The notes beneath the pieces were generated by a model, which was not told the DNA's origin, ran no database searches, and saw only the letters and a list, made by a program, of their open reading frames with translations. Positions 6,369 to 52,847 of a DNA stretch of 54,667 bases are shown here, piece after piece. Both the position numbers and the translations under genes were made by a program. Position 1 is the stretch's first letter. Every line of letters begins with the position of its first letter. Source of the DNA: a bacterium (lineage in GTDB: Bacteria; Hydrothermota; DG-26; JAUXAN01). Location of the stretch: contig JAUXAN010000013.1 of NCBI GenBank assembly GCA_030619885.1, positions 1 through 54,667 on the forward strand, given 5' to 3'.

Positions 6369-6424
6369 AAAAACCTCCTTACAAACTTGATAAAAAAAAT
6401 AAAATCTTTGTCAAGGAAAAAACA

Positions 6425-6560
6425 GCCGTGACACGAAACACCACGGATGCTGACACGGATAAACACAGAATCAGTAGGTCGGGTTTCCCCGCCTGCTAAA
6501 GCGAAACTGCGGGCATGCATACCTGACATCACCTTCTGTGGACTCTGCGATCTCTATGGT
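6425..6560. repeat. Composite of decayed intergenic repeats
   Basis: Holds fragments that recur elsewhere. CACGGATGCTGACACGG with flanking ACACAGA matches, reversed, the stretch at 41412-41450. CAGTAGGTCGGGTTTCC recurs at 10314-10331. No gene is seen in 6369-6651 beyond this and the promoter at 6571. Confidence 0.5.
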
Positions 6561-6570
6561 TATTTTTTCC

Positions 6571-6598
6571 TTGACAATATTTTTGTTATTCTTACAAT
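6571..6598 (+). promoter_or_regulatory. Sigma-70 type promoter for lipoprotein/LysM operon
   Basis: TTGACA at 6571-6576, a 16-base spacer and TACAAT at 6593-6598. It gives a leader of roughly 47 bases that contains a strong AAAGGAGGTGA, unlike the leaderless units elsewhere in the window. Confidence 0.65.
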
Positions 6599-6651
6599 TA
6601 TCTAAGTATGTAAGTTAAAAAAATCTTTACTAATTAAAGGAGGTGAAGACG

Positions 6652-10861: not shown

Positions 10862-11135
10862 TGTGAAAACACCCATACGGGTCGTATGACCAAATGACAC
10901 CCAAACTACCGAAATATCAAGGGATTATAAAAACTATGATTGAAACAATAGACACTGATTTACACTGATGGCCACAGATTATAAAAAGAATATTCAATCA
11001 GTGAATATCTGTACATTCCATACGGTCACAGACCCGTATGGGATGCTGTGCAACGGATCTTGAGATGTTAATCTGTGTCTAATATACTTCTTGTCTTTCA
11101 GTGATTTTCGGTGTTTAATGTATAATCTGGGATTA
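10862..11135 (+). repeat. Composite repeat region upstream of argS
   Basis: Left: GAAAACACC then CATACGGGTCGTATGACC (10874-10891) then AAATGACACC; the same outer repeat at 14701 lacks the palindrome. Middle: blocks of ACTGATTTACACTGATG and CAATCAGTGAATATCTG, then CCATACGG at 11018-11025 and CCCGTATGGG at 11033-11042 followed by ATGCTGTGCAACGGATC. Right: CAGTGATTTTCGGTGTTTAA and TATAATCTGGGAT (11100-11133), shared with 14836-14865. No gene in 10856-11140. Confidence 0.7.
11121..11126 (+). promoter_or_regulatory. TATAAT box within repeat end, upstream of argS
   Basis: A perfect TATAAT lies in the right end of a dispersed repeat. No good -35 is seen at 17 bases. Predicted +1 near 11133 leaves an eight-base leader before the argS GTG start, with no Shine-Dalgarno. 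An identical box in the same repeat stands upstream of the gene at 14887. Confidence 0.45.
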
Positions 11136-11140
11136 ACCGA

Positions 11141-12742
11141 GTGATTAAAAAATATATAAAAGACAGGGTCAAAGAGACAGTCAAACAACTCTACAGAATA
11201 GAGCGAGAAGTAGACCTTACGATAAATGAAAAGTTTGGTGATTTTTCAACGAATGTAGCTTTTTCTATCGCAAAGGAGATGAAAAAATCACCCCAGGAAG
11301 TTGCACAGGAGATAGCCTCAAAGATAGAAAAAGACAAAAAATTTGCCAAGATTGAAGTCGGCGGCAATGGATTTTTGAATTTCTTTGTTGACAGGCGACT
11401 ACTGGCATTGGAAGTTGAGGAAATTTTGAAAATGGGTGACGCTTACGGGAAAAGCGATGTTGGAGAGAAAGAAAGGGTTTTGATTGAATATGTGAGCGCA
11501 AACCCAACAGGACCACTTGTGGTTGTCAACGCCAGAGCAGCAGCAATTGGCGATTCTTTAATTAGAATATTGAATTTTGCAGGGTTTGAAGCGGTTTCAG
11601 AGTTCTATGTTAATGACAGCGGACATCAGATAGATCTTTTGGAACAATCTGTAAGAACACGGTATAGAGAACTATCGGGTGAGAGAGTTCAATTCCCCCA
11701 GAATGGATACCATGGTAATTATATAAAAGCCATTGCTAAAGAGCTATTGGATAAAAAAATAGAGGAATTCAGAACATACCCTGTAAAAAAAATTGTTAGA
11801 GAACAACGCACTACCCTTGAGAGATTTAATGTAAGGTTCGATAGTTGGGTATATGAAAGCAAGATAAGGGACAGCACATTGATAAACGAAGTGAAGACAA
11901 AATTGAAATCGAGGGATATGATATACGAAAAAGATGGCGCGGTATGGATTCGATCCTCAAAGTTTGGAGATGAAAAAGATAGGGTGCTTGTGAAGAGTAA
12001 TGGAGAATTTACATATATATTACCGGATCTTGCGTACCACCTCAACAAATTTTCGAGGGGGTTTGAAAGACTCATCAATATCTTAGGTCCTGAACACCAT
12101 GGGTATATTGGACGAATGAAAGCAGGACTCGAGGCACTTGGCTATCCCCCAGAAAATCTGGTCATTCTCATAGCACAGCAGGTCAATCTGATAAAAGAAG
12201 GGAAGAAAATATTTATGTCCAAAAGGGAAGGTGAGTTCATACCCATGGATGAACTCTTAGATGAGGTTGGAACAGATGCAACCAGGTTCCTCTTTCTTTT
12301 GAGAAAAATCTCTTCCCATCTCGATTTTGATATCGATCTGGCGAAGAAGACCGCAGAAGAGAATCCAGTTTACTATGTCCAGTATGCACATGCAAGAATT
12401 TGCAGCATAGTCGTGTTTGCAAAAAAAATGGGGGTCGCTGTTGAGCAGATAGGTTCCGCCGAGATGAGTTTACTGAATGAAGAAAAAGAGTATGGACTCA
12501 TTAAGCAACTTGTAACATTTCCTGATATTGTGGAAGGGGCAGCATCGAATTTAGAACCCCATAGAGTTCCATTTTATCTAATCGATCTGGCAACGACTTT
12601 TCACAATTTCTATCAAAGATACAGAGTTGTCCAGGACGACCAAAATTTGACTCTGACGAGATTGGCACTTGTGGAAGCTACAAGGACTGTTTTGAAAAAT
12701 GGATTGAATTTAATTGGGGTATCTGCACCAGAACAGATGTAA
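11141..12742 (+). CDS. argS: Arginyl-tRNA synthetase with divergent HIGH motif
   Basis: Charges tRNA-Arg; class I synthetase, cytoplasmic. 533 residues, in the family range. It has the N-terminal additive domain (INEKFGDFSTNVAFSIAKEM), the active-site segment NPTGPLVVVNARAAAIGD near residue 122, VNDSGHQI near residue 160, GPEHHGYIGRMKAGLEALGY near residue 313, the KMSKS equivalent IFMSKREGEFI near residue 357, and the anticodon-binding domain (YAHARICSIV and a C-terminal DALR-type region). The HIGH signature, normally HVGHGR after NPTGPL, reads VVVNAR here. The rest is intact, so it is probably active or a known lineage variant. GTG start. Confidence 0.93.
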   Translation: MIKKYIKDRVKETVKQLYRIEREVDLTINEKFGDFSTNVAFSIAKEMKKSPQEVAQEIASKIEKDKKFAKIEVGGNGFLNFFVDRRLLALEVEEILKMGDAYGKSDVGEKERVLIEYVSANPTGPLVVVNARAAAIGDSLIRILNFAGFEAVSEFYVNDSGHQIDLLEQSVRTRYRELSGERVQFPQNGYHGNYIKAIAKELLDKKIEEFRTYPVKKIVREQRTTLERFNVRFDSWVYESKIRDSTLINEVKTKLKSRDMIYEKDGAVWIRSSKFGDEKDRVLVKSNGEFTYILPDLAYHLNKFSRGFERLINILGPEHHGYIGRMKAGLEALGYPPENLVILIAQQVNLIKEGKKIFMSKREGEFIPMDELLDEVGTDATRFLFLLRKISSHLDFDIDLAKKTAEENPVYYVQYAHARICSIVVFAKKMGVAVEQIGSAEMSLLNEEKEYGLIKQLVTFPDIVEGAASNLEPHRVPFYLIDLATTFHNFYQRYRVVQDDQNLTLTRLALVEATRTVLKNGLNLIGVSAPEQM

Positions 12743-14886: not shown

Positions 14887-16758
14887 TTGTATTTTCATAT
14901 CTTTCTTGCCGGTGTTACAGGAGTCCTCGTATTATTGAGGGGCGGCGAGGAACAGATTGTTATCTATGGCTTTGAAATACTGACTATTGTTTGCTTCGCT
15001 ATCGTTGTCGGTAGATCGATAAAAAATGGCAGATTCACTCTCAAATATACTAATTTGGAAATCCCTCTTTTCCTATTTGGCTTATCTTTAACCCTCTCAT
15101 TCATTTTGTCTCCATACAGATACAGCAGTATGGGCGGTTTTTTTGAATATATCTCATATATACTTCTTTTCTTTCTCGTTCTTAACCTACTCAATGAAAA
15201 GGGGGTCAAATTTTTCATCGCAACATTAATAATTTTAAGCATCTATGAGTCTTCCCTCTGTATATATCAAAAGTTTATCTTAGGCATGCCCAGACCTAAC
15301 GGCACCCTCCGATATGCCACATATCTCTGTGATTTTCTATCCTGCGGCATCTCTTTTTTGCTTTTCTACATTCTATTTCACAATCTTCGTCTTTTCAAAA
15401 AACTGACCTTACTCGCTCCACTCTCTCTTATAGTATATGCCTTCTTTCTGACAGGAACGAGGGCTGGCTTGATAAATCTAGTCGTCATTGGAACTGTCTT
15501 TGGAATTGCCAAAGGAAAGAGATGGTTTCTCATCTTCTTGACGGTGATAGCGATATTCTTTCTTCTCATCCCAAACCCGATAACGGAGAGGCTATTGGCT
15601 GGAAAACTCCACGACATCTATGCACTCGAACGGGTGAATATATGGAAACAATCTTACAACATTTTTAAATCACATTTGTTCTTTGGGTGTGGCTTGGGAA
15701 ACTTCGAATATTTTGCCAGAATATATAACTTTCCTGTTGAAGAGGCGATTGGGAAATATGCCAAATGTGCGAAGATTGCACACAATCAGTATCTCCATAT
15801 ATCGGCGGAACAGGGACTTTTTGGTATAGTGTCGTTTTTATCGATCATCATAATCCTATTTGCAAAACTAAAGACTCACTGGATACCTAAAACCACTTCA
15901 ACTTCTGGCGTATCTCGCCTTCCATTCTTTGCAATTGTCCTGTTCTTCCTTGCTCACTTTTTCTTTGACAATTCGTTGTATCTTCCAGCCAATGCGGTAA
16001 TATTCTTTTCTTCCTTGGGTATCCTTGCAAGGAAACTTCCGTTTACAGAATTCACAAAAAAGTTCAACCCGAGTCGTAGATATGTAATCTATCTGATTAT
16101 AATAACCCTGTCTGTACTGTATTACTTTTCAACACCCTTCGTTTCTAAAATATTATACAGAAAGGCTGAAGAATTTGCAGAAGAAAAAAGATATGAGGAT
16201 GCTGTGAAGAATTGCAGGCTTGCGAGTATTTTCTTACCCAACTGTCCTGTCTATTATGATGGGCTTGGAAAACTTTATGAGAAAAGATTTGAGCAGACTT
16301 CGGATTTAGGATTTTTATATCTTGGCTACCAGCAATTCAAGAAGGCAGTTGAAAATGGTAGAATTGATAGAATCTACTGGGAGAATTTTGCAGACTTTTT
16401 GTGGAGGAAGAGAAAATATGTGAATGCGATTGATAACAAGGTATATTACGAAATTATAGAAAACTTAGAAGAAGCAATAAGGTGGGACCCCAAAAATCCA
16501 TTCATAAGGAGAAAATTGGCTTACTCCTATTATGCTTTTGAAAAACTGGATGAGGCGGAAGAAGAATTGAAACAACTTATCGAATTTGAACCGAACTACA
16601 TCGAAGCATACTATCTTTTAGGATTAGTCTATGAAAAAAAGGCAGAGATAAAATCTGCAAACATTTACTATAACAAGGCAAAAAAACTCAAGGAGTTGTC
16701 TTCAAAATGGATCCCACAGTCAGATTATGAAAAAAACCTGATTGGTTTCAACCCTTGA
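14887..16758 (+). CDS. O-antigen ligase/polymerase family protein with TPR tail
   Basis: A 623-residue inner-membrane protein with about twelve hydrophobic helices over residues 1-410 and a large extracytoplasmic loop containing FFGCGLGNFEYFARIYNF and AHNQYLHISAEQGLFG, the Wzy_C/O-antigen ligase signature. The last ~190 residues are tetratricopeptide-like repeats (FAEEKRYEDAVKNCRLASIF, LDEAEEELKQLIEFEPNY). Such fusions occur among bacterial ligases and polymerases that transfer lipid-linked glycans to lipid or protein. It starts with TTG; no Shine-Dalgarno. Together with the ABC exporter operon that follows it fits surface-glycan assembly. Ligase versus polymerase cannot be decided from sequence. 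Confidence 0.85.
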   Translation: MYFHIFLAGVTGVLVLLRGGEEQIVIYGFEILTIVCFAIVVGRSIKNGRFTLKYTNLEIPLFLFGLSLTLSFILSPYRYSSMGGFFEYISYILLFFLVLNLLNEKGVKFFIATLIILSIYESSLCIYQKFILGMPRPNGTLRYATYLCDFLSCGISFLLFYILFHNLRLFKKLTLLAPLSLIVYAFFLTGTRAGLINLVVIGTVFGIAKGKRWFLIFLTVIAIFFLLIPNPITERLLAGKLHDIYALERVNIWKQSYNIFKSHLFFGCGLGNFEYFARIYNFPVEEAIGKYAKCAKIAHNQYLHISAEQGLFGIVSFLSIIIILFAKLKTHWIPKTTSTSGVSRLPFFAIVLFFLAHFFFDNSLYLPANAVIFFSSLGILARKLPFTEFTKKFNPSRRYVIYLIIITLSVLYYFSTPFVSKILYRKAEEFAEEKRYEDAVKNCRLASIFLPNCPVYYDGLGKLYEKRFEQTSDLGFLYLGYQQFKKAVENGRIDRIYWENFADFLWRKRKYVNAIDNKVYYEIIENLEEAIRWDPKNPFIRRKLAYSYYAFEKLDEAEEELKQLIEFEPNYIEAYYLLGLVYEKKAEIKSANIYYNKAKKLKELSSKWIPQSDYEKNLIGFNP

Positions 16759-17085
16759 CAGATTGTCCAAAAACATTTTAATTGGACGCAGATCTCCGCA
16801 GATAACCGCAGAGGTAGTGCAGGGTCTTCAGACCCTGTCTGACAATGTCATTGCAAGCCTGTCCCTACGGATCCGTATGGATACGGGCGAAGCAATCTCC
16901 TATGCAGGGCAAGCGTTTTTGTATTCCACCATTCTAACATGTTAGAATCATCGAATGATAAATTTAAAAAGTATATTTTGTAAAAACGCAAACTTTGCCC
17001 ACACGACCCCCAAACGATTTCGTTGTTTAAAAACTGTTTCGTTTGTTAAAGTCACAGAGTCAAGCACCGTCCCCGAATTCTCCTA
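16759..17085 (+). repeat. Gene-free repeat region before the polysaccharide operon
   Basis: Contains AAAAACATTTTAATTGGACGCAGAT (two motifs, 16770-16793), the solo left end of the GxxExxY cassette family; a hairpin CAGGGTCT/AGACCCTG; a partial TGTCATTGC repeat interrupted by ACGGATCCGTATGG (16867-16880); and a perfect 18-bp palindrome ATTCTAACATGTTAGAAT at 16931-16948. TTTCGTTTGTT-like direct repeats follow near 17010-17048. No gene. Confidence 0.6.
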
Positions 17086-17123: not shown

Positions 17124-17906
17124 ATGTTAGCATATCTGGAAGAATTGGTAAACCACCGAGAACTACTCCGTAGTTGGGTTTCAAGAGAGATAAAGGTTAG
17201 GTATAAACAAGCTGTATTGGGTATAGGGTGGGCAGTCCTTCAGCCACTTGCGATGATGCTGATATTTACAGTAGTCTTCTCTTACTTCAACAAAATTCCA
17301 ACCGAAGGGATACCTTACCCTATCTTTTCCTACAGTGCACTCCTCCCATGGGTCTTTTTCTCAAATTCTATCTCCTTCGGAACCACGAGTCTGGTGCGTA
17401 ATATGAATTTGGTCACCAAAATATATTTCCCTCGAGAAATACTCCCCTTTGCCTCTTTAATTGCAAGTTTTATAGATTTTCTCGTTGCCTCGGTCATATT
17501 TGTCTTTTTAATGATATACTATAAAATTGCACTCTCTACTTCGCTTTTCTGGATTCCTGTTATTCTCATCGTTCAAGTCATTTTCAGCCTGGGAATACTT
17601 CTTCTGGGTTCTGCGCTGAATGTTTTCTACCGCGATATCAGGTTCATTATCCCGCTTGTGCTCCAGATATGGCTCTTCCTCTCACCCATAATCTACCCGG
17701 TGAGTTTAGTTCCCAATAGGTACAAAACTCTTTATATGCTCAATCCAATGGCATCTATCATTGACTCTTACAGGAGGTCCATTCTTTTCGGAAAGAGTCC
17801 CCAACTCAACTTTCTTTTAATTACAACAATAGTAGCAATAATCTTATTTATTCTTTCTTACCGGTTTTTTAAAATTAAAGAGAAGGTATTTGCCGATATA
17901 ATTTAA
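17124..17906 (+). CDS. Polysaccharide ABC exporter permease (Wzm-like, ABC-2)
   Basis: A 260-residue ABC-2 family permease that with the next gene exports a lipid-linked polysaccharide across the inner membrane. It has the N-terminal amphipathic segment LRSWVSREIKVRYKQAVLG and six hydrophobic helices; the family motif GWAVLQPLAMMLIFTVVFS follows near residue 35 and FLSPIIYPVSLVP near residue 190. The ATG at 17124 is selected because it sits at the predicted transcription start; the longer frame from 17043 begins within the -35 region. First of ten overlapping genes. Confidence 0.93.
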   Translation: MLAYLEELVNHRELLRSWVSREIKVRYKQAVLGIGWAVLQPLAMMLIFTVVFSYFNKIPTEGIPYPIFSYSALLPWVFFSNSISFGTTSLVRNMNLVTKIYFPREILPFASLIASFIDFLVASVIFVFLMIYYKIALSTSLFWIPVILIVQVIFSLGILLLGSALNVFYRDIRFIIPLVLQIWLFLSPIIYPVSLVPNRYKTLYMLNPMASIIDSYRRSILFGKSPQLNFLLITTIVAIILFILSYRFFKIKEKVFADII

Positions 17907-33326: not shown

Positions 33327-33517
33327 GGACGCAGATGAACCCCGTTAGAAAATTTGTTTATAAGGTGGAAGGAAATAATTCATTTGGTTTCCTCCTTTCT
33401 AACGGGGCAGGGACACAAAGAAAAAAATATTTATTAAATCTTGGTGGCTTTACCTTGGTGGTGAAAATTATCTGCGGTTATCTGCGGAAATCTGTCATAC
33501 GACCCGTATGGGCGTCC
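33327..33517 (+). mobile_element. Gene-less relative of the GxxExxY cassette with nested inserts
   Basis: Begins GGACGCAGAT one base after the NHL stop and ends with ATCTGCGGTTATCTGCGGAAATCTG...CGTCC, the same ends that bound the GxxExxY cassettes. Inside is a 68-bp hairpin element (33340-33407) that starts CCCCGTTAGAAAATTTG and ends CTTTCTAACGGGG, nearly identical to 52349-52416. The right end AATCTG-CGTCC is split by GTCATACGACCCGTATG (33494-33510). No gene in 33327-33524. Confidence 0.65.
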
Positions 33518-37603: not shown

Positions 37604-38033
37604 GGACGCAGATTCTCATGATTTTAAATATAAAGATATAACCGAAAAAATCATCAAGGCTTTTTACCAAGTATATAATACACTCGGCTATGGATTCTTG
37701 GAAAAAGTGTACGAGAATGCAATGTTAATAGAACTGAAAAAATTAGGTCTTACTGCTATTCCACAGTCTCCGATCAAAGTGTATTATGAAGAGCAAATAA
37801 TCGGGGAGTATCTTGCAGATATATTAATAGATGGAAAAGTAATAGTCGAGATTAAATCAGCAAAAAGTCTGGCGGAAGAGCATGAAGCACAATTATTAAA
37901 TTACTTGAAAGCAACTGATATAGAAGTCGGTTTATTACTGAACTTTGGTCCTAAACCAGAAATTAAGCGCAAGGCATTTGATAATTTGAGGAAGTAATAA
38001 TAAATCTGCGGTTATCTGCGTAAATCTGCGTCC
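37604..38033 (+). mobile_element. GxxExxY cassette 1 (terminal inverted repeats)
   Basis: A 430-bp unit with perfect 11-bp inverted ends: GGACGCAGATT (37604-37614) and AATCTGCGTCC (38023-38033). The right end has three tandem ATCTGCG units. It starts 12 bases after the pilin 1 stop and ends just before the pilin 2 regulatory region. It contains a single GxxExxY reading frame and almost nothing else. Confidence 0.65.
37617..37997 (+). CDS. GxxExxY family protein (PDDEXK-like), copy 1
   Basis: About 126 residues are encoded in one open frame from the cassette left end: HDFKYKDITEKIIKAFYQVY, then the family motif GFLEKVYENAM, PIKVYYEEQIIGEYLADILI, the nuclease-like KVIVEIKSAKSL (D-ExK arrangement), and LLNYLKATDIEVGLLLNFGP. 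No ATG exists before the motif; the first in-frame ATG is at 37698 (MLIELKK is preceded by MEKVYENA in another reading of the start), which would cut the conserved N-terminus, so a TTG/ATT start or a cryptic start must be assumed. GxxExxY proteins are uncharacterised; nuclease activity is inferred from fold predictions for the family. Confidence 0.65.
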   Translation, partial: HDFKYKDITEKIIKAFYQVYNTLGYGFLEKVYENAMLIELKKLGLTAIPQSPIKVYYEEQIIGEYLADILIDGKVIVEIKSAKSLAEEHEAQLLNYLKATDIEVGLLLNFGPKPEIKRKAFDNLRK

Positions 38034-41322: not shown

Positions 41323-41455
41323 TAGGACGCAGATTCACGCTGATAATCGCAGATTAAGTGGGGGACCCGTCCATACGGATCCTGCGGATACGGGTTCTTT
41401 ACAAGTTTCTCTGTGTTTATCCGTCTCAGCATCCACGATGCTCCGTGTTATTTAT
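41308..41455 (+). repeat. Solo cassette end and decayed repeats
   Basis: AAAAACATTTTAATAGGACG then CAGATTCACGC (41309-41341) matches the left end of the GxxExxY cassettes including upstream context seen at 16770 and, reversed, at 52845. A CCATACGG palindrome core lies at 41371-41378, and TCTGTGTTTATCCGTCTCAG (41410-41429) recurs reversed near 6440. No gene in 41323-41495. Confidence 0.6.
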
Positions 41456-44499: not shown

Positions 44500-44577
44500 C
44501 TAATTAAACAGAACTAAAAGGATAGCAATAAAATTCACAAAAAAACATATGTTTTACAAACTCCTTGTCAATAAAAA

Positions 44578-44680
44578 ATTGACCACAGAGAACACAGAGT
44601 TCAAAGAAAAAAGGAGAAAGGGGAAATTGTCCATACGGATCCGTTGCACAGCATCCGTATGGAATAGACGGTTCGTAGGT
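44578..44680 (+). repeat. Repeat block with full CCATACGG...CCGTATGG unit
   Basis: CCACAGAGAACACAGAG repeat (44581-44597) followed by CCATACGG (44631-44638), GATCCGTTGCACAGCATC and CCGTATGG (44655-44662). This is the clearest complete 32-bp form of the long palindrome. No gene in 44500-44747. Confidence 0.6.
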
Positions 44681-44711
44681 TGCTTTAGTCTACGAACTCG
44701 GCAATTTTTTC

Positions 44712-44740
44712 TTGACAAGAAGTTAGTTTTTTTGTATATT
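44712..44740 (+). promoter_or_regulatory. Promoter of gmhA operon, leaderless
   Basis: TTGACA at 44712-44717, 17-base spacer, TATATT at 44735-44740. Predicted +1 at 44747-44748 coincides with the A of the gmhA ATG. No Shine-Dalgarno. Confidence 0.7.
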
Positions 44741-49364: not shown

Positions 49365-49858
49365 AAGCCACGGATTTCACAGATTAGGAATCCGTGTAAT
49401 CTGTAGTTTATGAAAGCAAGCAATTTGAAACTAATTTACGAAGAGTTGACTTACAAAATAATAGGTATAGCAATGAAGATTCATAAGGAGTTGGGCCCAG
49501 GTTTTTTGGAAGCAGTATATGAAGAAGCTATGATAATCGAGTTGGAGAAAGAAGGTTTACCTTTCCAAAATCAAGTGCCGATAGAAATTGAGTATAGAGG
49601 AAAGAAACTGAAGAAAAAGTATAGAGCAGATTTTGTAATTGACTAGAAGGTTTTAGTAGAGATGAAAGGAATAAGCAAGCTAACAAAGGTAGATGAAGCC
49701 TGCATGATCAATTATCTCAAAGCAACGGATCTCAAGGTAGGACTCATATTAAATTTTGGTAGGAGCATCTTGGAATGGAAGAGGCTAATATATTGAGAAA
49801 TTGCACGGATTTTAAAGGATTTCACCAATTATTTTTTTATCCGTGTAATCTGTGGCTT
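49365..49858 (+). mobile_element. GxxExxY cassette 2 (different terminal repeats)
   Basis: Ends are AAGCCACGGATTTCACAGAT at 49365 and, reversed, AAGCCACAGATTACACGGAT ending at 49858: inverted, about 20 bases, with the two half-motifs CACGGAT and CACAGAT swapped. The unit holds a single, interrupted GxxExxY gene. Its ends differ from those of cassettes 1 and 3, so it is a separate family of the same design. Similar CACGGATT blocks without a gene lie at 12855-12885. Confidence 0.55.
49410..49796 (+). pseudogene. GxxExxY protein copy 2, interrupted by TAG
   Basis: The frame reads LKLIYEELTYKIIGIAMKIH, KELGPGFLEAVYEEAMIIEL (GxxExxY motif intact), EYRGKKLKKKYRADFVID, then TAG (49644-49646), then KVLVEMKGISKLTKVDEACM, INYLKATDLKVGLILNFG and TGA at 49794. 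The stop lies between the conserved Asp (ADF) and the ExK motif of the putative PDDEXK site, where other members have a short residue such as Gly, Asn or Lys. One nonsense change explains it. The sequence differs clearly from copies 1 and 3. Confidence 0.75.
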
Positions 49859-52335: not shown

Positions 52336-52847
52336 GGACGCAGATGAACCCCGTTAGAAAATTTGTTTATAAGTTGAAAGGAAATAATTCATTTGGTTTC
52401 CTCCTTTCTAACGGGGTGAACGCAGATTCTCAGGATTTTAAATATAAAGATATAACCGAGAAAATTATCAAGGCCTTTTACCAAGTCTATAATACACTCG
52501 GCTATGGATTCTTAGAAAAAGTGTACGAGAACGCAATGTTAATAGAACTGAAAAAATTAGGTCTTACTGCTATTCCACAATCTCCGATAAAAGTTTATTA
52601 TGAAGAGCAAATAGTTGGAGAGTATTTTGCAGATATATTAGTAAATGAGAAGGTAATAGTTAAGATTAAATCGGCAAAAAGTCTTACGGAAGGCAACGAG
52701 GCACAATTATTAAATTACTTGAAAGCAACTGATATAGAAGTCGGTTTATTACTGAACTTTGGTCCTAAACCAGAAGTTAAACGCAAGGCATTTGATAATT
52801 CAAGGAAATAGTAATAAATCTGCGTTTATCTGCGTAAATCTGCGTCC
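52336..52847 (+). mobile_element. GxxExxY cassette 3 with nested hairpin element
   Basis: A 512-bp unit with ends GGACGCAGAT (52336-52345) and, on the right, three ATCTGCG units finishing ATCTGCGTCC (52838-52847). Beyond this the right flank ATTAAAACATTTT is shared, reversed, with the flanks at 16770 and 41309. A 68-bp hairpin element (52349-52416, CCCCGTTAG...CTAACGGGG) is inserted three bases into the left end with a partial duplication (GAACGCAGATT), compared with cassette 1. Confidence 0.68.
52344..52811 (+). CDS. GxxExxY family protein (PDDEXK-like), copy 3
   Basis: A 155-residue protein. Residues 1-30 (MNPVRKFVYKLKGNNSFGFL and LSNGVN) come from the inserted hairpin element, which also provides the ATG. 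The remaining part is nearly identical to copy 1: FKYKDITEKIIKAFYQVYNT, GFLEKVYENAM, PIKVYYEEQIVGEYFADILV, KVIVKIKSAKSL, LLNYLKATDIEVGLLLNFGP. The ExK motif reads VKIK rather than VEIK, so the catalytic acidic residue is replaced by Lys, and nuclease activity may be lost. The repeat has in effect supplied a start codon that copy 1 lacks. Confidence 0.7.
   Translation: MNPVRKFVYKLKGNNSFGFLLSNGVNADSQDFKYKDITEKIIKAFYQVYNTLGYGFLEKVYENAMLIELKKLGLTAIPQSPIKVYYEEQIVGEYFADILVNEKVIVKIKSAKSLTEGNEAQLLNYLKATDIEVGLLLNFGPKPEVKRKAFDNSRK

Follow-up and report, generated by a model that had tools for sequence, protein, structure and literature searches.

The IVS described so far interrupt 23S rRNA genes, carry an S23 ORF as cargo and are removed by RNase III. 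In Coxiella burnetii, the IVS measures 428 nt and contains a single S23p ORF; its terminal inverted repeats form a stem of 28 bp. It has been called a selfish element, and earlier authors suggested that it is a mobile element or the remnant of one (PMC4990558). Insertion sequences have terminal inverted repeats, and most of their families generate target-site duplications. IS200/IS605 and RAYT/REP elements and their palindrome-ended derivatives have end hairpins, no clear target duplication and gene-less derivatives. MITEs are short gene-less elements with terminal repeats that originate from a longer element. Here, we compared with these systems a window of 54,667 nucleotides (the whole stretch of DNA analyzed), in which an initial annotation had noticed short cassettes with one GxxExxY gene each.

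GxxExxY cassettes and gene-less copies in the source genome

First, we found that the three cassettes were present where the initial annotation had placed them (Table 1), and in a genome-wide profile search all of them matched TIGR04256 far over the cut-off. The protein of cassette 1 scored 138 and 143 bits against TIGR04256 and PF13366 (curated cut-offs 35 and 22, respectively), and cassette 3 was likewise compared with PF13366 for membership of GxxExxY / PDDEXK_3. As had been described, cassettes 1 and 3 shared their ends, with a right end of three ATCTGCG units (at 38004, 38014 and 38024 in cassette 1, where AATCTGCGTCC occupies 38023-38033), and cassette 2 had another end type (AAGCCACGGATTTCACAGAT / ATCCGTGTAATCTGTGGCTT). 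The left end of cassette 3 was additionally split by a palindrome of about 72 bp, with a second left unit from 52418, and this palindrome was the source of the ATG and of the N-terminus MNPVR...SNGV of the GxxExxY frame.

Second, GxxExxY was the only gene within these cassettes; none of them encodes a transposase of the DDE, HUH, serine or tyrosine type. No cassette of the window holds an obviously healthy gene: cassette 2 is a pseudogene interrupted by a TAG stop codon, in cassette 3 the catalytic Glu is replaced by Lys (ExK became KxK) and cassette 1, whose PD-(D/E)XK active site is complete, showed no ATG, GTG or TTG ahead of the motif. No rRNA family match was found across the window, and the cassettes sat between protein genes.

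Table 1. Coordinates of cassettes, arms, frames and gene-less copies in the window
Feature	Position	Strand	Remark
Cassette 1, complete GxxExxY element, 430 bp	37604..38033	+	exact ends
Cassette 1, left terminal unit GGACGCAGATT	37604..37614	+	
Cassette 1, GxxExxY frame (PDDEXK_3), ExK Glu at 37848	37605..37997	+	catalytic residues intact
Cassette 1, right arm, three ATCTGCG units, 10-bp period	38003..38033	+	
Cassette 2, GxxExxY element, other arm family CACGGATTTCACAGAT / ATCCGTGTAATCTGTGG	49365..49858	+	
Cassette 2, GxxExxY pseudogene, in-frame TAG 49644-49646	49410..49796	+	
Cassette 3, GxxExxY element, left end with internal palindrome	52336..52847	+	
Palindromic insert AACCCCGTTAG...CTAACGGGGT, cassette 3 left arm	52347..52418 (limits approximate)	.	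about ten like copies in genome
Cassette 3, GxxExxY frame, catalytic Glu to Lys (AAG 52662-52664)	52344..52811	+	
Cassette 3, right arm, three ATCTGCG units	52817..52847	+	
Right-end copy, gene-less, 93% identical to cassette 1 right end	16784..16812	-	
Gene-less mosaic: left end and palindrome, foreign repeat, two right-end units	33327..33488	.	
Right-end copy, gene-less	41325..41355	-	

The solo ends reported at 16784 and 33327 were also present, and the one given as 41324 should read 41325; those at 16784 and 41325 are right ends, and that at 33327 is a left end bearing the same palindrome as cassette 3 (33337-33406). The window held 8 end-motif matches with at most one mismatch, compared with 0.53 expected. 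In the source genome (G000; 2.46 Mb, 86 contigs), pattern searches with at most one mismatch gave 180 matches to AATCTGCGTCC and 25 to the reversed pattern, which served as control, versus 8 places with GxxExxY. Cassette 1 had two more full copies in unrelated surroundings, cassette 3 and one on contig C80 (91-92% identity over 428 bp). Other copies retained both ends and had lost most of the gene (C38:57379-57583 and C29:14555-14733); shorter copies of the ends numbered about 40. Gene-less pairs of ends were spaced 84-266 bp apart, and an outer A+T-rich extension was frequent. The internal-deletion derivatives fit the description of MITEs given above, and the gene-bearing cassette does not. 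About ten copies had the palindrome at the identical left-end spot, in sizes of 43-82 bp and with MNPVR...SNGV in frame.

Other repeats were seen during this reading. A similar palindrome was present in one of two sister species and missing from the other (loci L132 and L124). Between the gene-less pair C36:24671-24858 lay a sequence that reads as the 5' part of a four-helix-bundle S23 gene (MKIERFEDLE...). Within the window, 6373-6611 and 44556-44727 were gene-less, MITE-like and bounded by terminal inverted repeats of 26-50 bp unrelated to the GxxExxY ends.

Occurrence and pairing of the arms

Arms were scored by comparing the 150 bp upstream of a gene with the 150 bp downstream of it for an inverted match. 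In the phylum set (WOR-3; 60 genomes, 71 single-domain GxxExxY genes and 89 neighboring control genes), 83% of the GxxExxY genes exceeded the 95th percentile of the controls (about 5% of the controls did so), and the proportion was 21% when left and right flanks from different loci were paired. The second set comprised 77 loci from about 20 phyla with 327 control genes from the same loci; its query, like that of the IMG/VR search, consisted of three close sequences, the third row carrying one Met-to-Leu error. Here the median arm score was 24, compared with 10 in controls, and about 71% of the loci were above the control 95th percentile of 17. The initial annotation had held that its reading would be refuted if most GxxExxY genes lacked such ends, or if the ends were just as common beside unrelated genes. 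The opposite of the former was observed; as to the latter, ordinary genes were without them, whereas S23 genes and gene-less copies had ends of the same kind. Among the S23 genes (TIGR02436, the four-helix-bundle protein of the 23S rRNA IVS), 89% of 28 exceeded the control arm threshold, with other words, and separate S23 cassettes of the same anatomy coexisted with GxxExxY cassettes in the same genomes.

An unbiased scan of 373 kb around GxxExxY genes, a sample selected for this gene and hence no genome-wide census, revealed 66 arm pairs versus 3 in shuffled DNA. A GxxExxY gene lay inside 54 of them, and most of the other 12 were gene-less or abutted a GxxExxY element, while a different gene was enclosed now and then. 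Clear arms were missing at some single-domain GxxExxY genes of Bacteroidota. The two-domain GxxExxY genes (about 270 aa), which served as negative control, showed no arm excess (2/13).

Some of these genes were also read individually. Two-domain GxxExxY genes at G000:C32:21617-22351 and in L090-L096 lacked arms, and their upstream regions were ordinary; they resemble genes settled in the chromosome, and the two-domain type may be a domesticated host form. By eye, same-word arm pairs were seen around a nucleotidyltransferase-like gene (L246 3235-4369) and a GIY-YIG-like gene (L227 2869-3496), so cargo other than GxxExxY and S23 may occur in arm pairs. GxxExxY was found in 8 plasmid records and in 1 of the 2.9 million IMG/VR contigs, and a search in phages gave none; thus, the gene is not in general phage- or plasmid-borne. 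The resolution of the protein tree was too poor to prove transfer between phyla.

The arms were made of tandem words, and the word varied by family (ACGCAGAT, CACAGAG, CACAAAG, ACGAAT, CACTGA, CCGTTAAT and more). At 147 loci, the left arm matched its own right arm with a median of 19, compared with 10-12 for the right arms of elements with 40-60% identical proteins. Even among ten filled copies of one orthologous Flavobacterium site, self-pairing exceeded cross-pairing (27.8 versus 19.4; 9/10; p=0.006). Because own-arm matching exceeds cross-matching, the two arms co-evolve after insertion: their sequence drifts and their complementarity stays, through either selection on pairing or mutual correction of the arms. 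RNA folding of whole cassettes gave z values of -2.7 and -0.8.

Mobility and the candidate movers

Unrelated loci, in one genome or in different families of the phylum, shared elements with 80-95% identity that was confined to about 430-650 bp and ended at the arms. In the clearest case, G036:C77 carries an element of about 514 bp that is precisely absent from the orthologous site of a sister species (G046:C24:7972; flanks 96-98% identical): the filled site reads ...aacttaaGACATCC...TATACCAGggggttaa..., and in the empty one ...aacttaa is directly followed by ggggttaa.... No target duplication of at least 3 bp was found at this one precise empty site; hence, the flank check proposed in the initial annotation yielded paired ends and an empty site and no such duplication. 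An earlier empty-site candidate from the same two species was rejected as not clean, the other species holding a different gene-less repeat there. Thus, the cassette is a discrete, sharply limited unit with dispersed copies, internal deletions and one precise empty site. Together with the near-identical dispersed copies and the arms in about 20 phyla, this supports the view of the initial annotation that the cassettes are minimal mobile elements from which gene-less derivatives arise. It had also known of no description of GxxExxY as a mobilizing protein, and neither that nor a description of such arms was found by us in the freely accessible literature; one passing mention of GxxExxY close to a reverse transcriptase proved unrelated.

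Relatives of the G036:C77 element were found at other places in G046, and several of them had internal deletions that differed in extent; a few bases after their right end, TATAATGAACATTATACCAGG, came a ribosome-binding site and start codon. In addition to the arms, this family had a local hairpin at both ends. In three copies, at three sites, its gene was truncated C-terminally, after the catalytic residues, which implies that the element moved in trans, that it moved before the truncation or that the short form works. In the G046 copies L328-L346, TATAAT and CCAGGAGG stood directly before start codons, so the right end may provide the downstream gene with promoter and ribosome-binding site. 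Two further repeats were noted in L322 (G036:C90): a REP-associated (Y1) transposase gene flanked by GGTAGCCGCAACCTTTAGGTTGCG hairpins (1719-2362), which is missing from the orthologous G046 site, where there is another repeat, and three copies (11043-11305, 15797-16059 and 17380-17642) of an element of 263 bp whose terminal inverted repeats measure 44 bp and which also occurs in G046.

The elements favored the orientation of their neighbors. In the WOR-3 set, the downstream neighbor was on the same strand in 66/69 cases and the upstream one in 62/69, whereas 82.5% of adjacent control genes were co-directional (76% at gaps of 60-600 bp); on the downstream side this excess was significant (p=0.001 and 1e-5), and for upstream neighbors it was weaker (p=0.07 and 0.003). 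In the multi-phylum set, neighbors were co-directional in 55/66 and 60/68 cases versus 72%.

The GxxExxY protein is under purifying selection (pairwise dN/dS mostly 0.04-0.3, with a few values to 0.39), so it matters to the element or to the host. An alignment of 86 sequences retained the motif's G, E and Y, a D, ExK, QxxxY and NF, all of which except NF were invariant or nearly so. The predicted structure had a mean pLDDT of 95, and its best matches among solved folds were Cas4 SSO0001, the archaeal Holliday-junction resolvase Hjc and lambda exonuclease; the homing endonuclease I-Bth0305I was also returned, weakly, and Cas4 sequence models matched weakly, below their cut-offs. The predicted active site of GxxExxY is complete and of Cas4/Hjc/lambda-exonuclease type. 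These enzymes act on DNA ends, flaps or junctions.

We infer that the cassette is moved by its own nuclease, and we slightly favor the view that GxxExxY cassettes are minimal, IVS-like intergenic mobile elements, self-mobilized by a structure-selective enzyme. Each consists of one nuclease gene of roughly 120 codons between complementary arms of short tandem words; the cassettes inhabit intergenic DNA, nearly always in sense with their neighbors and often directly before a start codon, and shed gene-less derivatives. The protein would recognize the hairpin or four-way junction of the arms instead of a fixed sequence, and extrusion of the arms in this form would explain why pairing is kept despite the change of words. 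Cutting of the hairpin or junction would release or copy the element, which would then be joined into a new intergenic site, and gene-less copies would subsequently be mobilized in trans. However, there are far more gene-less ends than genes, which would be expected of ends mobilized by another agent, and the element of the empty site has a truncated gene, local terminal hairpins like those of IS200/IS605 and no target duplication.

These last points fit the main rival, in which an HUH (Y1) transposase like those of IS200/IS605 or RAYT systems acts in trans on non-autonomous cassettes and GxxExxY is a passenger or accessory. Y1_Tnp was common (38/60 genomes of the phylum and 14 places in the genome of the window), the truncated gene belongs to a dispersed family, and a RAYT with REP-like ends of its own lay near a GxxExxY element in G036. 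Yet the ends of that RAYT differ from cassette ends, and no Y1_Tnp match was found in G014 (4 GxxExxY and 5 S23) or G052 (5 and 3 places, fragments included), both genomes being incomplete. Moreover, the arms pair with each other over about 400 bp, beyond local hairpins, and track GxxExxY and S23 genes rather than Y1, and the nuclease is under strong purifying selection. We therefore consider this explanation unlikely, though a serious one.

A homing-type process appears quite improbable. In it, the nuclease would cleave arm copies without a gene, or orthologous sites that are empty, and repair, with the arms as homology, would install the cassette together with its gene. In its favor, the same Flavobacterium intergenic site, between terminator and start codon, was filled in some species, gene-less in L305, a remnant in L306 and empty in others, and at one WOR-3 site, two genera carried distinct GxxExxY lineages (46% protein identity) whose arms differed, tandem gene-less arm modules adjoining one element; the weak fold match to I-Bth0305I points the same way. 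On the other hand, the dispersed copies at unrelated sites and the clean empty site without arm remnant require insertion into arm-free DNA, which argues against homing. In L300-L302, L304, L307-L309 and L314 of Flavobacterium, the place of the GxxExxY element of other species was occupied by terminator-like repeats (AAATTCCAAA...TTTGGAATTT).

An ordinary, non-mobile host gene with regulatory or terminator repeats would suit the purifying selection and the location between co-directional genes, but hardly the dispersed, near-identical, element-limited copies, the pseudogenes and the internal deletions; the empty site refutes it unless a precise deletion occurred, and we give it very little chance. 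Spread at the RNA level, by an IVS-like stem-loop transcript and a reverse transcriptase in trans, agrees with the sense orientation and IVS-like anatomy and is largely refuted, as RVT_1 was found in just 1/60 relatives and in none of the copy-rich genomes. It is the near absence of reverse transcriptases, together with Y1 transposases that are common but unmatched in two incomplete genomes, that led us to weigh self-mobilization, Y1 in trans and homing as we did.

Relation to described elements

GxxExxY is annotated in many phyla without a known role, and matching repeat words lie scattered and unexplained through genomes. Should the two be gene and ends of a single type of element, this common gene family would gain a function and this class of intergenic repeats a source, the long-puzzling IVS would become a special case of a genome-wide element, and a very small nuclease that possibly acts on DNA shape would be added. 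At roughly 400-500 bp, the cassette looks to be among the smallest known selfish DNA elements. More tentatively, and with the odds somewhat against it, the GxxExxY cassettes, the free-standing S23 cassettes and the 23S rRNA IVS could form one large, unrecognized class of mobile elements of less than 600 bp in at least 20 bacterial phyla. In this class, no fixed end sequence would be needed for mobility, which would instead depend on the hairpin or junction shape that the co-evolving word-repeat arms take, with GxxExxY as the structure-selective mover nuclease.

With regard to proteins, GxxExxY resembles Hjc, Cas4 and lambda exonuclease in its predicted PD-(D/E)XK fold and its D...ExK...QxxxY pattern and differs from them in having its own N-terminal GxxExxY helix pair. 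With regard to elements, the cassettes share terminal inverted repeats with insertion sequences, without the target-site duplication of most IS families at the one precise empty site. The derivatives are like MITEs in being short, gene-less, ended by inverted repeats and derived by internal deletion, whereas the cassette ends are not tied to a known transposase, the arm sequence varies by family and no target duplication was seen. As in IS200/IS605 and RAYT/REP elements, there is no clear target duplication, one cassette family has end hairpins and gene-less derivatives exist; unlike them, the cassettes lack an HUH transposase, have two long arms that pair with each other and carry GxxExxY or S23.

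Finally, the cassettes agree with the 23S rRNA IVS in a length of about 430 nt, one small ORF and complementary, stem-forming ends. Free-standing S23 cassettes and the IVS share the anatomy of the GxxExxY cassettes and probably their way of life. In contrast to the known IVS, the cassettes are intergenic, with many dispersed copies (no 23S or 16S signature motifs were found in any of the loci examined), and their cargo is the PD-(D/E)XK nuclease GxxExxY, as in the window, or a free-standing S23 gene. The 23S rRNA IVS is thus the nearest known thing, and the cassettes would be its genome-wide, nuclease-bearing variant.
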